From contig MKTU01000055.1 in assembly GCA_001898415.1 (NCBI GenBank), positions 1-64,000 on the forward strand: 64,000 nucleotides of DNA. The letters run 5' to 3'. Below, piece by piece: positions 14,882 to 60,550 of the stretch. Source of the stretch: Rhodanobacter sp. 67-28. Its GTDB lineage: Bacteria > Pseudomonadota > Gammaproteobacteria > Xanthomonadales > Rhodanobacteraceae. The notes beneath the pieces are model-generated. The model did no database searches. It saw only the letters and a program-made list of their open reading frames with translations, and had not been told where the DNA came from. Within the stretch, counting starts at the first letter, position 1. Every line of letters begins with the position of its first letter. Position numbers and translations under genes: made by a program.

Positions 14882-15089
14882 CAGCGGGACACGTTCGTCC
14901 CGCTGTGCCGGCAGGTCTTCGGACTTGCGGACGAGGATCGAGGCGATCCGCCTACTTGTCTTCGCTTCCCAGCCACGGCGGGCCAGTGCACGTGAAGACG
15001 TTCGTTTCCGCTCTACCGCTGCGGGGCAGTTCCGGAGTCACACCGGATTCCCTTTTAAGCCAAACCGATGTCGCATCGGGTCTGGCACC
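14882..15089 (-). promoter_or_regulatory. Cobalamin (B12) riboswitch upstream of nrdA
   Basis: Read on the minus strand, the leader shows AAAAGGGAATCCGGTG (minus sense of 15041-15056), then AACTGCCCCGCAGCGGTA, and at the 3' end GAAGACCTGCCGGCAC (14905-14920). These are conserved blocks of the B12 aptamer. GTGCC near 15084-15088 can pair with GGCAC at 14905-14909 to close P1. Immediately downstream, 14882-14905 forms a perfect 9 bp hairpin (CAGCGGGAC/GTCCCGCTG), a likely part of the expression platform; no U-tract follows, so control may be translational. Binding of adenosylcobalamin should lower nrdA-nrdB expression. Confidence 0.9.
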
Positions 15090-15196
15090 GACGCACACAA
15101 CATATCGGGTGGCTCGGGAAGGGTCAACCCAACAAGTTGTGCGCAAGTCGTCTTGCGGGCCGGACGCGGCGGGTGCCTGCGCGGGCTGCGGCGACG

Positions 15197-54757: not shown

Positions 54758-56311
54758 TCAGGGCCGCGGTGCGGCCTCGTCGTAGAAGCGCGCCAGATCC
54801 GCCTTCACTTGCTTCAAGGCGTCGACATCGAAGTAGATCATGTGACCGGACGGATAGAAACCGTACTCGATGTTCTTGCTGATCGCCGGGTCCAGGCTGA
54901 GGTGGCCCAGGTCGAACTCGGTGGCGTAGAACGGCGTGGCCAGGTCGTAGTAGCCGTTGGCGGAAAAGACCTTCAGATGCGGGTTGCGCCGCATCGTGTC
55001 GGCCAGGTCACTGCCCACGTACGGCGCCTGCGGGAAGCGCTGATGCTCGCGCTTCCAGTCCCAGTTGCGGTTGATGACGCCGTAGTTGTTGGGCAGGTAG
55101 GCGTGGTCGCCGGTGTAGTTCAGGGCGCTGGTGGCGTACTGGTTGAAGGCGGCCAGGTAGGCGCCGGTGGCGGCATCGCTGGCGGCGTCGCCGTCGGGCG
55201 TCTCGCCGGCGGCATCCGGGTCGATGCCTTCGAAACGGCCGTCCAGACGTCCAACCGTGCGGCGCTGGTCGCGCAGCAGCTCCTTGCGGAAGCGGCTGGG
55301 GTCGATGCGCAGGTTGGCCTGCTTGATGTACGTCGTCGACAGGCCTATGTACTGGCTCAGCTGCGTGGCGATGCGGTCGGCCTCGGCCGGCGTGATCGCG
55401 TCGCCCCTGGCCAGTGCCAGGGTGTAGTCGGTGCTGGCGAACTGGCGCACGGCGGCGATGAAGCCGGCCAGGTCGGCGGGCTTGTTCGGTACCTTGTTGT
55501 GGTACCAGGCGATCGCGGCCTCGGTCGGCAGGTTGACGATGTAGCCGTGGTCGACACCGGTGTTGGCCCACACGCTGAAGTCCAGGATCGAGGACATCAG
55601 CACGATGCCGTTGAGCTCCATGCCCTGGTCCTGCAATTGCTTGGCCAGCACCGCCGAGCGGGTGGTGCCGTAGCTCTCGCCGAACAGGAACTTCGGCGAG
55701 TTCCAGCGGTGGTTGTCGCCGACGTAGCGGGTGATGAACTTCGCGAACGCGTCGGCATCCTGATCGATGCCGTAGAAGTCCTTGCCCTTGGCCGCGCCGA
55801 CCAGCTGCGAATAGCCGGTGCCGGGCGCGTCGATGAAGACCAGGTCGGACTTGTCGAGCAGGCTGTATTCGTTCGGCACCGTGCTGTACGGCGGCGGCGG
55901 GATCGGCTGGTCGCCCGCGTTGGCCACCCGTACCGGCCCGACCGAACCCATGTGCAGCCACATGCTGGAGGAGCCGGGGCCGCCGTTGAACAGGAAGGTG
56001 ACCGGCCGCTGCGCGGCCTTGCCGTCGCCGACGGTGTAGGCCACGTAGAACATGCTGACCGTGGGCTGGCCCTTGTCGTCCTTGATCAGCAAGGTGCCGG
56101 CGGTGGCCTTGTAGGCCACGTTGCGGCCATCGATGCGCACGCTGTGCGAGGTCACCACCTTGCGTTCGGGCGGGATCGGCAGCGTGTCCTTCTTGGTGTC
56201 CTTGTCGGCCTGGGACTTGCTGTCGTGCGGGTTGCTGTCGGCCGCATGCAGCGGGGCGGCAAGGCCGATGGCCAGGACGAAGGCGAGCGGGGCGATGAGG
56301 GAATGGCGCAT
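54758..56311 (-). CDS. Exported S10 family serine carboxypeptidase, paralogue 1
   Basis: This 517-residue protein has a signal peptide (about 1-23, ending LHAAD). The S10 fold shows NGGPGSSS (oxyanion and substrate-binding), the nucleophile elbow GESYG with Ser213, the Asp in NGYYDLATPF and the His in PSGHMIY. It should release C-terminal residues in the periplasm or outside. ATG 56311 has GGAG about 9 nt upstream. It lies 16 bp after a close paralogue, and shares the blocks IKQANLR and SRFRKELLRDQR with it. Confidence 0.9.
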   Translation of the reverse strand: MRHSLIAPLAFVLAIGLAAPLHAADSNPHDSKSQADKDTKKDTLPIPPERKVVTSHSVRIDGRNVAYKATAGTLLIKDDKGQPTVSMFYVAYTVGDGKAAQRPVTFLFNGGPGSSSMWLHMGSVGPVRVANAGDQPIPPPPYSTVPNEYSLLDKSDLVFIDAPGTGYSQLVGAAKGKDFYGIDQDADAFAKFITRYVGDNHRWNSPKFLFGESYGTTRSAVLAKQLQDQGMELNGIVLMSSILDFSVWANTGVDHGYIVNLPTEAAIAWYHNKVPNKPADLAGFIAAVRQFASTDYTLALARGDAITPAEADRIATQLSQYIGLSTTYIKQANLRIDPSRFRKELLRDQRRTVGRLDGRFEGIDPDAAGETPDGDAASDAATGAYLAAFNQYATSALNYTGDHAYLPNNYGVINRNWDWKREHQRFPQAPYVGSDLADTMRRNPHLKVFSANGYYDLATPFYATEFDLGHLSLDPAISKNIEYGFYPSGHMIYFDVDALKQVKADLARFYDEAAPRP

Positions 56312-56327
56312 GGCGAGAGGCTCCGTA

Positions 56328-57896
56328 TCAGCGCTGCGGCGCGGCAAGGTCGTAGAAGCGGGCGAGATCGTGCTTGAGCTGCTGCAGCGCCTCGGTGTTG
56401 AGATAGATCATGTGCCCGGAAGGGTAGTAAGCGAACGACAGATTGCCGCGCAGCGAAGGGTCCAGATTCATGTGCGCCAGGTCGTACTCGGTGATGAAGA
56501 ACGGCGTGGCGAAATCGTAGTAACCGTTGAGCGAGAGCACCTTGAGGTTCGGATTGGTGCGCATCGCGTGCGCCAGGTCGCCGGCCACGTACGGCAGCGG
56601 CAGCGCGCGGCGCATGCCCGGGACGGCGTGCTTCCAGTCCCAGCCCTGGATGATCTTGCCGTAGGTGGGGCGGTAGTCGAGCTGGCTCGGGTAGTCGAGC
56701 TGGTCGGCAAGATAGTCGTGGAAGGCGCTGACGAAGGCGCCGCTGATGCCGGTGTCGGAGGGGTCGTACTCCGGCGTTTCGCCGGCGGCATCGAGGTCGG
56801 TGCCGGTGAAGCGGGCGTCGTAGCGGCCCAGGATGAGACGCTGGTCGCGCAGCAGTTCCTTGCGGAAGCGGCTGGGGCTCACGCGCAGGTTCGCCTGCTT
56901 GATGTATTGCACCGGCAGGCCGGTGAAGCCGGCCATCTGCGTGGCGATCGCGTCGAACTGTGCGGCGGGCAGATCCTGCCCCAGTGCCAGCGCGGAGGCG
57001 TACGGGCCACGCGCCCAGGCGCGGGCCCGGTCGACGAAGGCCTTCAGCTCGGCCGGCTTGTTCTGGCCGCTCTTGGAAGGCACTTTGTCGTGGTACCACG
57101 CGGCGGCGGCGAAGCTGGGCAGGTAACCGACGTAGCTCTCGTCGTAGCCCGGCATGCGGATCGCGTAGTTGAGGATCGAGGACATCAGGATCACGCCGTT
57201 GAAGGCCATGCCCTTGTCCTGCAGCGCGTCGACCAGCGCGGCCGACCGGGTGGTGCCGTAGCTCTCGCCGTACAGGAACTTGGGCGAGTTCCAGCGCCGG
57301 TTGAGCGTGACGTAGCGCTCGATCGCGCGGCTGAAGGCGGAAATGTCCTGGTCCACGCCCCAGAAGTCCTTGCCGGTGGCCTTGCCCAGCGGGCGCGAAT
57401 AACCGGCGCCGACGGCGTCGATGAAGACCAGGTCGGTCTTGTCGAGCAGGCTGTCGCCGTTGGCCACCAGGTGGTACGGCGCCGGCGCGGTGGCCTGCGG
57501 GCTGGCCGTCTCGATGCGCACCGGGCCGAGCGAGCCCATGTGCAGCCACACGCTGGAGGAACCCGGGCCGCCGTTGTAGAGGAAGGTCAGCGGGCGCTGC
57601 GAGGGCTTGCCGTCGTCGACGGTGTAGGCGACGTAGAACACGCTGGCCTGCGGCTGCTGCTTGTCGTCGCGGATGATCACCGTGCCGGCGGTGGCGGTGT
57701 ACCTGATCGTGCGCCCGCCGATGGCGACGCTGTGCTGCGTGCGCACCGCCGTTTCATGGGCGGGGATGCGCGGATCGGTGCTGTCATGGGTGGCGCTGGA
57801 TGACGCGTTGGCCGGCGCCGCGTCGGCGGCATGGGCGGCGGGCAGGCCGGCGAGCGCGATGGCACTGGCCAGCAATAGCGAAGCGAGGCGGCGCAT
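56328..57896 (-). CDS. Exported S10 family serine carboxypeptidase, paralogue 2
   Basis: This 522-residue protein has a signal peptide (about 1-24, ending AHAAD). The triad is intact: Ser212 in GESYG, Asp in NGYYDFATPF, His in PSGHMIY. It is clearly a tandem paralogue of the gene at 54758-56311, sharing length, order of motifs and several identical blocks. It starts at ATG 57896 with AGGGGA upstream and is the first gene of the run S10-S10-AcpA-pip. Confidence 0.9.
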   Translation of the reverse strand: MRRLASLLLASAIALAGLPAAHAADAAPANASSSATHDSTDPRIPAHETAVRTQHSVAIGGRTIRYTATAGTVIIRDDKQQPQASVFYVAYTVDDGKPSQRPLTFLYNGGPGSSSVWLHMGSLGPVRIETASPQATAPAPYHLVANGDSLLDKTDLVFIDAVGAGYSRPLGKATGKDFWGVDQDISAFSRAIERYVTLNRRWNSPKFLYGESYGTTRSAALVDALQDKGMAFNGVILMSSILNYAIRMPGYDESYVGYLPSFAAAAWYHDKVPSKSGQNKPAELKAFVDRARAWARGPYASALALGQDLPAAQFDAIATQMAGFTGLPVQYIKQANLRVSPSRFRKELLRDQRLILGRYDARFTGTDLDAAGETPEYDPSDTGISGAFVSAFHDYLADQLDYPSQLDYRPTYGKIIQGWDWKHAVPGMRRALPLPYVAGDLAHAMRTNPNLKVLSLNGYYDFATPFFITEYDLAHMNLDPSLRGNLSFAYYPSGHMIYLNTEALQQLKHDLARFYDLAAPQR

Positions 57897-59582: not shown

Positions 59583-60212
59583 TCAGTGCATCGGTGGGTG
59601 GTCGAGCCGGGTCAGCCGGATCACGTCCGGGTCATCGGCGTGTTCCAGCAGCAGGCATTGCACGCGCTCCTGCCATGCCCGACCGAATGCCGCGCGCTGT
59701 TCCGCGCTGGCTGCCGGATCGAGTGCGCCGCCGAGCAGCGGACGCAGGTTGGCGGGTGCGGGCACGCTCGAGAGATCCAGCTCCACCGCCACGCTCGCGC
59801 CGGTGTCGCGCCGGCGGACCCGCACGGCGGCGTGCTCGGCCGTGTCGGCATAGCTCAGCAGCGACTCGCGCGCGTAGCGTCCGGCAATGCCGTGAAAGCC
59901 GTTGGCGCCGGCCGCCCCGGTGATCAGGGTAAAGACCTGGCCGATCACGCCGTTGACGCCCTCGCTCTCCGGCCCCGGTATGAGCACCTCGACGCCCCCG
60001 CGCTCGGCGGGGCCGTCCGGGTACAGCGCGTGCAGCGCGGCACGCGCCATCAGGTACGCGCCGGCGACGGTGGGGCAGGAGTGTCCGGCCAGCCGCACCG
60101 CGTCGATATAGCGGTAGTCGAGCAGGCCGTCGTCGGCCGCACCCAGGAACGCCGCCAGCGGATCGCGCATCGGGATCGGCGGCGCCTGGTCGAAGAAAGC
60201 CGGGGTGCCCAT
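59583..60212 (-). CDS. FmdE/Tra5-like domain protein
   Basis: This 209-residue protein resembles the formylmethanofuran dehydrogenase subunit E domain found alone in many bacteria. The motif LAGHSCPTVAGAYLMARA carries His44 and Cys46, which bind metal in this family; TGAAGANGFHG is a second conserved block. The enzymatic role in non-methanogens is not known. Its ATG overlaps the preceding stop as TGATG, so it is translationally coupled to the DUF2249 gene and shares its FNR-type promoter. Confidence 0.8.
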   Translation of the reverse strand: MGTPAFFDQAPPIPMRDPLAAFLGAADDGLLDYRYIDAVRLAGHSCPTVAGAYLMARAALHALYPDGPAERGGVEVLIPGPESEGVNGVIGQVFTLITGAAGANGFHGIAGRYARESLLSYADTAEHAAVRVRRRDTGASVAVELDLSSVPAPANLRPLLGGALDPAASAEQRAAFGRAWQERVQCLLLEHADDPDVIRLTRLDHPPMH

Positions 60213-60490
60213 CACTCGTCCGGCAAGCCGGTGATGCCGAAGTCGATCACGATGGCACCGGGCTCGCGCTGGCGGTAGGCCACGGTGAGGTTGTCGCCGA
60301 GGCGGTCACGCAACTGCGCGATCAGCGGCAGCGGGTCGTGGTCGTTGACGAAGCGCATGGTTTCGCCCGAACGCAGCACGCCGATCGCGCCGAAGATCGC
60401 GGAATGGCGGAAACGGCGGGCCACGCCGCGGGCATCGAACAGGTGGGTGTTGGGCTCGGTCTCGATATCGAGGGGCATGACGGGACTCAT
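60212..60490 (-). CDS. DUF2249 domain protein
   Basis: This protein has about 92 residues. The core FDARGVARRFRHSAIFGAIG, MRFVNDHDPLPLIAQL and GAIVIDFGI fits the DUF2249 (SirA-like fold) family, often encoded near denitrification or nitric-oxide-stress genes. ATG 60490 or 60478 are possible starts, neither with a strong ribosome binding site. It is the first gene of a two-gene unit with FmdE and is preceded by an FNR-type box at the class II distance. Confidence 0.75.
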   Translation of the reverse strand: MSPVMPLDIETEPNTHLFDARGVARRFRHSAIFGAIGVLRSGETMRFVNDHDPLPLIAQLRDRLGDNLTVAYRQREPGAIVIDFGITGLPDE

Positions 60491-60508
60491 GGTGGGAAAG
60501 ACCGCCCC

Positions 60509-60550
60509 AACATACGCCGTCGATGGCCATCGGCCACTGACCTGGATCAG
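60509..60550 (-). promoter_or_regulatory. FNR/DNR-type box with -10 element
   Basis: CTGAC-CTGG-ATCAG at 60537-60550 matches the FNR/DNR dyad (TTGAT-N4-ATCAA) closely. On the minus strand TATGTT at 60509-60514 is a fair -10 element. The box centre is 32 bp from the -10 centre, the spacing expected for a class II FNR-activated promoter with the box at -41.5. The predicted transcript would start near 60502, just ahead of the DUF2249 gene. Confidence 0.65.

Follow-up and report, generated by a model that had tools for sequence, protein, structure and literature searches.

A conserved FNR-type promoter upstream of a DUF2249 and FmdE-fold gene pair in Rhodanobacter: possible accessories of N-oxide respiration

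Introduction

In a stretch of 64,000 nucleotides from Rhodanobacter sp. 67-28 (referred to as the window; the assembly containing it comprises 4.08 Mb), two short genes encoding a DUF2249 protein and an FmdE-like protein are preceded by a palindrome that resembles the binding sites of FNR-family activators. This locus raises the question of which signal controls the two genes and what their products contribute to the cell. The initial annotation had proposed an oxygen- or NO-responsive pair, which may mature or bind a metal cofactor.

Organization of the locus

The DUF2249 gene (60212..60478, minus strand) encodes 88 amino acids when read from its second ATG, and 92 amino acids if the start at 60490 is used. 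A comparison of homologous leaders, in which a usable ATG was present in 45 of 48, favours the second ATG (60478) as the probable start. The FmdE-like gene (59583..60212, minus strand, 209 amino acids) begins within the stop codon of the DUF2249 gene, and both share the sequence TGATG (TGA 60214..60212, ATG 60212..60210). The gene upstream of the pair is ubiE-like according to Pfam.

Upstream of the DUF2249 gene, the mRNA leader (60479..60508, minus strand), with a putative start site at about 60502, is preceded by the -10 element TATGTT (60509..60514, minus strand, centre 60511.5). The box of the FNR/ANR/DNR type, CTGATCCAGGTCAG, is a 14-bp dyad at 60537..60550 on the minus strand with its centre at 60543.5; read on the plus strand, it is CTGACCTGGATCAG. 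The centres of the dyad and of TATGTT lie exactly 32 bp apart. The coordinates confirm both this spacing and the joining of the two genes by TGATG, as they had been annotated initially.

Two other features of the window may be mentioned. A cobalamin riboswitch was detected at 14893-15107 (minus strand, 106 bits), and at 54758-57896 (minus strand) two adjoining related genes with GGPGSSS motifs occur, which presumably encode serine carboxypeptidases.

Conservation of the promoter

At class II promoters activated by FNR or ANR, the box is centred at about -41.5, approximately 32 bp from the centre of the -10 element. In the window alone, the dyad was matched once with 0.47 matches expected, which is no better than chance. 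Because the dyad is not significant in the window by itself, the locus was compared with those of relatives, in all of which genes were called with a simple purpose-made predictor. In a first set, DUF2249 was located upstream of the FmdE-like gene in 29 of the 30 loci read, mostly directly, and YTGAYN4RTCA was present within 200 nt upstream in every relative with the pair (29/29). In random first-order sequence, the box reached a mean of 0.27 and a maximum of 2 over 300 rounds; it is this comparison with the relatives that renders the box significant. The neighbourhoods of the pair vary among the relatives, and the box is kept all the same.

A second set, drawn from named records, comprised the loci of the 80 best relatives out of at least 570; it partly overlaps with the first, and together both sets yielded 60 leaders, 48 of them distinct. 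Here, the box was detected in 31 of the 32 loci with DUF2249 before the FmdE-like gene in comparison to 4 of the 48 loci without it. The sole miss among the 32 belongs to a MAG named Turneriella, and in one of the four (L142) the box apparently lies inside an upstream reading frame. Downstream of the box, a [TC]ANNNT hexamer, which was defined after the sequences had been seen, occurred at a distance of 20-23 nt in all 48 distinct promoters and in 2/48 of a control stretch. In 46 of the 48 promoters it was positioned 21 or 22 nt past the box, corresponding to a centre spacing of 31 or 32 bp. A scan for the sigma-70 consensus detected no promoter, in agreement with a class II promoter, which lacks a -35 element.

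TGA-N6-TCA is common to sites of the CRP/Clp type and of the FNR type, and the dyad might belong to CRP/Clp or be a palindrome that arose by chance. The single match in the window, no more than chance provides, would agree with this. However, the bases ahead of TGA do not fit TGTGA, the consensus half-site of the CRP type, the half-site in the relatives is YTGAY, and the same motif precedes nnrS, qNor and ccoN in this genome (see below). A CRP/Clp site or a random origin of the dyad is considered extremely unlikely.

Further boxes and FNR-family regulators in the genome

The motif derived from the relatives, YTGAYSCAGRTCA, was found at 14 sites genome-wide, including that of the window, whereas the composition of 162 kb of the genome would predict 0.9-1.6 sites. 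According to gene prediction, nine of these sites are intergenic and five lie inside genes. The intergenic sites belong to nnrS, a second DUF2249 gene, qNor (with another gene divergent), ccoN and the present pair; two more are located between PALP-type and CopD-like genes, one at the gene of an 83-amino-acid membrane protein and the ninth upstream of an xseB-like gene. Two of the nine precede genes without a known link, and the site before the xseB-like gene may have arisen by chance. A scan of this kind had been suggested in the initial annotation, and it did recover the same box at other loci, nnrS, the second DUF2249 gene, qNor and ccoN among them. Looser boxes were present before hemN and nirK and in some cases also inside genes. 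A looser palindromic form, YTGATN4ATCAR, occurred at 25 places in the genome (50 counting both strands, with 9 expected on both strands), and 10 of the 15 places read are inside genes by prediction. The assignments of NnrS, of the NirK-type copper enzyme, of NorB and of the regulators rest on Pfam, those of ccoN, hemN, the CopD-like gene and xseB on inspection by eye. The second DUF2249 gene of this genome is part of an nnrS-nirK cluster.

In Pseudomonas and other denitrifiers, ANR/DNR boxes of the TTGAT-N4-ATCAA type occur before hemN and the genes of cbb3 oxidase, nir and nor. The present genome is similar to this ANR/DNR regulon in that boxes of the same type precede the corresponding genes, but it differs in its half-sites, which are mostly CTGAY/RTCAG. 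In the literature searched (open-licence PubMed Central), no DUF2249-FmdE-like pair was met as a target of ANR or DNR.

On contig C37, two boxes of the FNR type (78932-79024; L212, L213) lie between the divergent genes of a PALP-type enzyme and a CopD-like membrane protein, and a second qNor homologue (C37:73836-76049) is located a few kb away. In four loci of relatives (L075, L120, L142 and L149, by eye), the FmdE-like gene likewise has a PALP-type gene next to it. On contig C17, a box of the FNR type together with a TATAGT element was found upstream of the 83-amino-acid membrane protein (C17:141595, L206).

An FNR-family gene is located directly after hemN (C17:29600-30358), and its product possesses the cysteines C27-x2-C30-x5-C36 and an ETVSR helix. 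Such a cysteine arrangement, together with an E..SR recognition helix, is taken here as a mark of the FNR/ANR type. A second FNR-family gene on the same contig also encodes ETVSR and two of these cysteines, the third being missing.

Distribution among related genomes

Matches to the FmdE-like protein were obtained in 32 of 147 genomes. After exclusion of G026, whose match shows 35% identity and two stops, 31 carriers were counted, among them one with a broken copy (G127) and one without DUF2249 (G073). At E<=1e-90, a gene of the ANR/FNR type was present in 31/31 carriers and in 58/116 non-carriers (Fisher 1.5e-8, uncorrected for relatedness). The conserved box and spacing, the boxes of the same type before other genes and the presence of such a regulator in every carrier together give good support to the prediction of an FNR/DNR-type class II promoter, as put forward in the initial annotation. 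From these comparisons, control of the pair by low oxygen, possibly also by NO, through an FNR-family activator is very probable. The sequence is compatible with either oxygen or NO as the signal.

Enzymes of N-oxide metabolism were also commoner among the carriers, in counts that are likewise uncorrected for relatedness: qNor family 21/31 versus 45/116 non-carriers, NirK 22/31 versus 47/116, NarG 14/31 versus 13/116, and at least one of the three 31/31 versus 60/116. The E-value cut-offs for ANR, qNor and NirK were chosen by the analyst. Among qNor, NirK and NarG, no single enzyme was common to all 31 carriers, and NarG had no match in the genome of the window itself.

The relatives listed comprise records titled Rhodanobacter, Dokdonella, Thermomonas, Lysobacter, Stenotrophomonas, Denitrificimonas, Marinobacter, Halomonas, Nitrosomonas and Nitrosospira. 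Among the matches listed, which may leave out the record of the window itself, the nearest named relative is Rhodanobacter lindaniclasticus with 96% identity in the FmdE-like protein. The neighbours are ordinary genes in most loci read. In one locus (L083, G127:C1:1780000-1795000), hemN-FNR-nnrS is found near the DUF2249-FmdE-like pair (mostly by eye), the FmdE-like copy being broken by a stop. Another locus (L120) has the order nirK ... moaA-PALP-FmdE-like-moeA-moaD-moaE-narK-narG (MoeA and PALP by Pfam, the rest by eye), and in a third (L187, G271) the FmdE-like gene lies between genes of a FecCD-type permease and an ABC ATPase, in an operon of the iron-siderophore type (by eye).

A different arrangement was observed in ammonia oxidizers. 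Of the 80 best loci, 23 belong to Nitrosomonadaceae by title. In 17 of them, and in no locus from outside this family, the FmdE-like gene follows a gene whose products form one cluster, and the member of this cluster that was checked is a hemerythrin HHE protein (Pfam). The box was present in none of the 23 Nitrosomonadaceae loci within 250 nt before the FmdE-like gene and in one of the 23 within 1500 nt. Among 20 genomes without DUF2249 beside the FmdE-like gene, 15 (including G073 and some incomplete MAGs) had no DUF2249 match anywhere. Since an FmdE-like gene is thus also found where DUF2249 is absent, joint action of the two proteins does not have to be assumed.

The DUF2249 and FmdE-like proteins

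The DUF2249 protein was clearly assigned to Pfam family PF10006 (E 4e-23, 81.4 bits versus a gathering score of 29.5). Its model (pLDDT 81.7) predicts a TusA-like fold; it matched the sulfur carriers TusA and SirA (3LVJ, 3HZ7) and TsuB (8J4C) with Z values of 8.6-9.5, just about 1-2 Z above unrelated rows, which start at 7.5 and go down from there. The protein differs from these carriers in the absence of the carrier cysteine: cysteine is lacking in the window copy and in 32 of the 33 aligned DUF2249 proteins. Sulfur carriage as in TusA is therefore unlikely, and a function as a sulfur carrier was dropped. H29 and H51 are invariant.

For the FmdE-like protein, the match of the window copy to PF02663 (FmdE) reached E 4e-4 and 20.8 bits, just below the gathering score of 22.9. 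Fifty of the 80 relatives of the second set (the best out of at least 570) were aligned with the window copy, and 45 of these 51 members matched PF02663 at E<=0.01. The model calculated from this alignment (pLDDT 93.7) resembles all three FmdE proteins of solved structure over most of the chain (2GVI, Z 12.2; 2GLZ, 12.0; 3D00, 11.7; next match 5.1), and on this basis the protein is assigned the FmdE alpha+beta core fold. Fold searches alone found these proteins: sequence profiles run against the PDB returned no relative of FmdE or TusA, and phmmer with a classic FmdE sequence (L182) gave no PDB match at E<=1.

The metal site published for FmdE comprises H15, H17, C19 and C55, i.e. the motif FHGHxC and a distant cysteine (PMC2954224, excerpt). 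Ligand positions were compared by alignment with three classic FmdE sequences. H17 and C19 are kept as H44 and C46, which are invariant in 51/51 sequences. In contrast, the position of H15 is occupied by alanine in 49/51, and no cysteine was found at the place of C55 (alignment columns 86, 87 and 89). A more distant relative outside the alignment (L191) does possess a cysteine at this place. The window protein contains only two cysteines and thus cannot form a four-cysteine zinc finger. It is an FmdE-fold protein without the classic four-ligand metal site.

That no function had been assigned to a bacterial FmdE-like protein of this kind agrees with the searches made. In open-licence PubMed Central, a scope within which absence is not proven, no paper was found on DUF2249 together with FmdE, nor on FmdE together with Nitrosomonas, and the papers on DUF2249 found there assign no biochemical role to it. 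In excerpts from the literature, the name FmdE is also in use for a formate dehydrogenase.

A hairpin in the leader

Among the leaders upstream of DUF2249 in L004-L032 and L091-L169, a covarying 5' hairpin was seen. In many relatives, the first nucleotides past the -10 element are able to base-pair with the region surrounding the ribosome-binding site, and the arms differ by species (e.g. GGGCTC/GAGCCC, GGAACTC/GAGTTCC, GTGCTC/GAGCAC). Leaders folded better than their own shuffles (mean z -1.18, n=47, the number of the 48 leaders that were long enough) and, by the same measure, better than a sample of 120 starts of other genes (mean z 0.12; Mann-Whitney 5e-9). Rfam gave no match at gathering score for the locus or leader of the pair.

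Since MAFFT left some arms out of register, an exchange of arms between the leaders of different species served as the test of the hairpin. For this purpose, 44 of 45 leaders were taken (the duplicate L092 was omitted), the second ATG being taken in the window and in L091, and the 41 of at least 30 nt were used. With their own 3' parts, leaders reached a mean of -10.3 kcal/mol versus -7.9 kcal/mol with those of other species, and 0/20000 permutations were as good. With 17 dissimilar leaders, p was 1.5e-4, whereas a control swap of the spacer before the -10 element had no effect (p 0.54). As arm swaps weaken the pairing, the sequence comparison indicates that the hairpin is a conserved RNA structure, a DNA structure being less likely. 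For six of these 17 leaders, the pairing with their own 3' part was no better than that with foreign ones, and the leader of the window, where the hairpin is weak, folds no better than its shuffles (z -0.13). In many relatives, a hairpin over the ribosome-binding site would possibly add a translational layer of control.

Possible functions of the gene pair

DnrT is a regulator of the CRP/FNR family. By analogy, the drpAB genes of Thermus thermophilus are the best precedent for the present pair: an overlapping DUF2249 bicistron with its own promoter, dependent on DnrT and part of nitrate respiration; loss of both genes reduces nitrate reductase activity to about one tenth (PMC6282519, excerpt). 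Both systems are overlapping pairs with a DUF2249 gene in first position, and for the present pair a dependence on an FNR-family regulator is predicted from its box. However, DrpB consists of a DUF1858 and two DUF2249 domains (PMC6282519, excerpt), whereas the second gene of the pair encodes an FmdE-fold protein, and drpAB is linked to nar, whereas narG was not found in the genome of the window. In Haloferax mediterranei, four DUF2249 genes are upregulated by 3.2 to 8.7 log2 units under denitrification (PMC11218638, excerpt). The association of DUF2249 with denitrification, on which the initial annotation had relied, is borne out by the excerpts of these two articles and by the genome studied here.

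The family name FmdE suggests maturation of the molybdenum cofactor for nitrate reductase or another molybdoenzyme. The position of the FmdE-like gene between moaA/PALP and moeA-moaD-moaE-narK-narG in L120, the higher frequency of NarG in carriers and the poorly active NarG made by the drpAB double mutant (PMC6282519, excerpt) are in line with such a role. However, the genome of the window has no NarG match, 17 of the 31 carriers have none above the cut-off, and a DUF2249 protein without cysteine in 32/33 cases cannot carry sulfur as TusA does, which makes this explanation very unlikely. The protein might also be a carrier of zinc, nickel or iron that is induced at low oxygen: solved FmdE proteins bind Zn/Ni at FHGHxC and the distant cysteine, most FmdE genes adjoin genes of metal-ion transporters (PMC2954224, excerpt), and in L187 the gene lies within a FecCD-type ABC operon. 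Against metal trafficking stand the replacement of H15 by alanine, the lack of a cysteine at the place of C55, the two cysteines that are too few for a zinc finger, and a solved member lacking His15 and Cys19, a different two of the ligands, which binds no zinc there (PMC2954224, excerpt); this role is considered unlikely. With two of the four FmdE ligands missing, no NarG match and no TusA cysteine in DUF2249, the maturation or binding of a metal cofactor, as initially proposed, has become a weak explanation.

Furthermore, the FmdE-like protein could, together with DUF2249 or hemerythrin, defend the cell against NO and nitrosative stress by removing NO or by repairing NO-damaged iron or thiol sites. 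The hemerythrin-cluster gene before the FmdE-like gene in the Nitrosomonadaceae loci, the NnrS-like genes in its neighbourhood (L083, L149 and L201, by eye) and the many carriers that are denitrifiers or ammonia oxidizers by name are consistent with this. The role of NnrS is debated. However, no NO-binding group was identified, and hemerythrin proteins have varied roles; a defence function is thus not very likely.

On balance, the sequence comparisons speak somewhat in favour of a bicistron of the ANR/FNR-DNR regulon that serves N-oxide respiration. More tentatively, the DUF2249 and FmdE-fold proteins may act as accessories of this respiration, a role with which the gene neighbourhoods in L083 and L120 agree. 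When oxygen falls, or possibly when NO rises, a dimer of the FNR family would bind at about -41.5 and activate transcription from the -10 element at 60514..60509. The DUF2249 protein, with its putative TusA fold, its invariant histidines and no cysteine, might function as a sensor or adaptor, and the FmdE-fold protein might act via the invariant His44-x-Cys46 on a small ligand or a metal. Together, or with other partners such as the hemerythrin of many Nitrosomonadaceae, both proteins could tune or protect metalloenzymes of N-oxide metabolism, in a manner similar to the action of DrpA and DrpB on the nitrate reductase of Thermus. The leader hairpin of many relatives would provide possible additional control at the level of translation.

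A more far-reaching idea, which is speculative and rather improbable, regards the FmdE-fold protein as a hitherto unassigned participant in bacterial N-oxide metabolism common to denitrifiers and ammonia oxidizers. Its invariant His-x-Cys motif, instead of the classic four-ligand metal site, would act on adducts derived from NO or sulfur, DUF2249 and hemerythrin would be alternative partners, and the denitrifier branch would be under double control: an activator of the FNR family would act on the promoter, and a 5' hairpin would hide the ribosome-binding site of the operon.

The conserved promoter and the co-occurrence in genomes tie DUF2249 to an FmdE-fold protein, which in ammonia oxidizers also exists without DUF2249. 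The pair thereby offers a simple two-gene target for the roles of both families in the handling of nitrite and NO, and perhaps in the release of N2O from soil.
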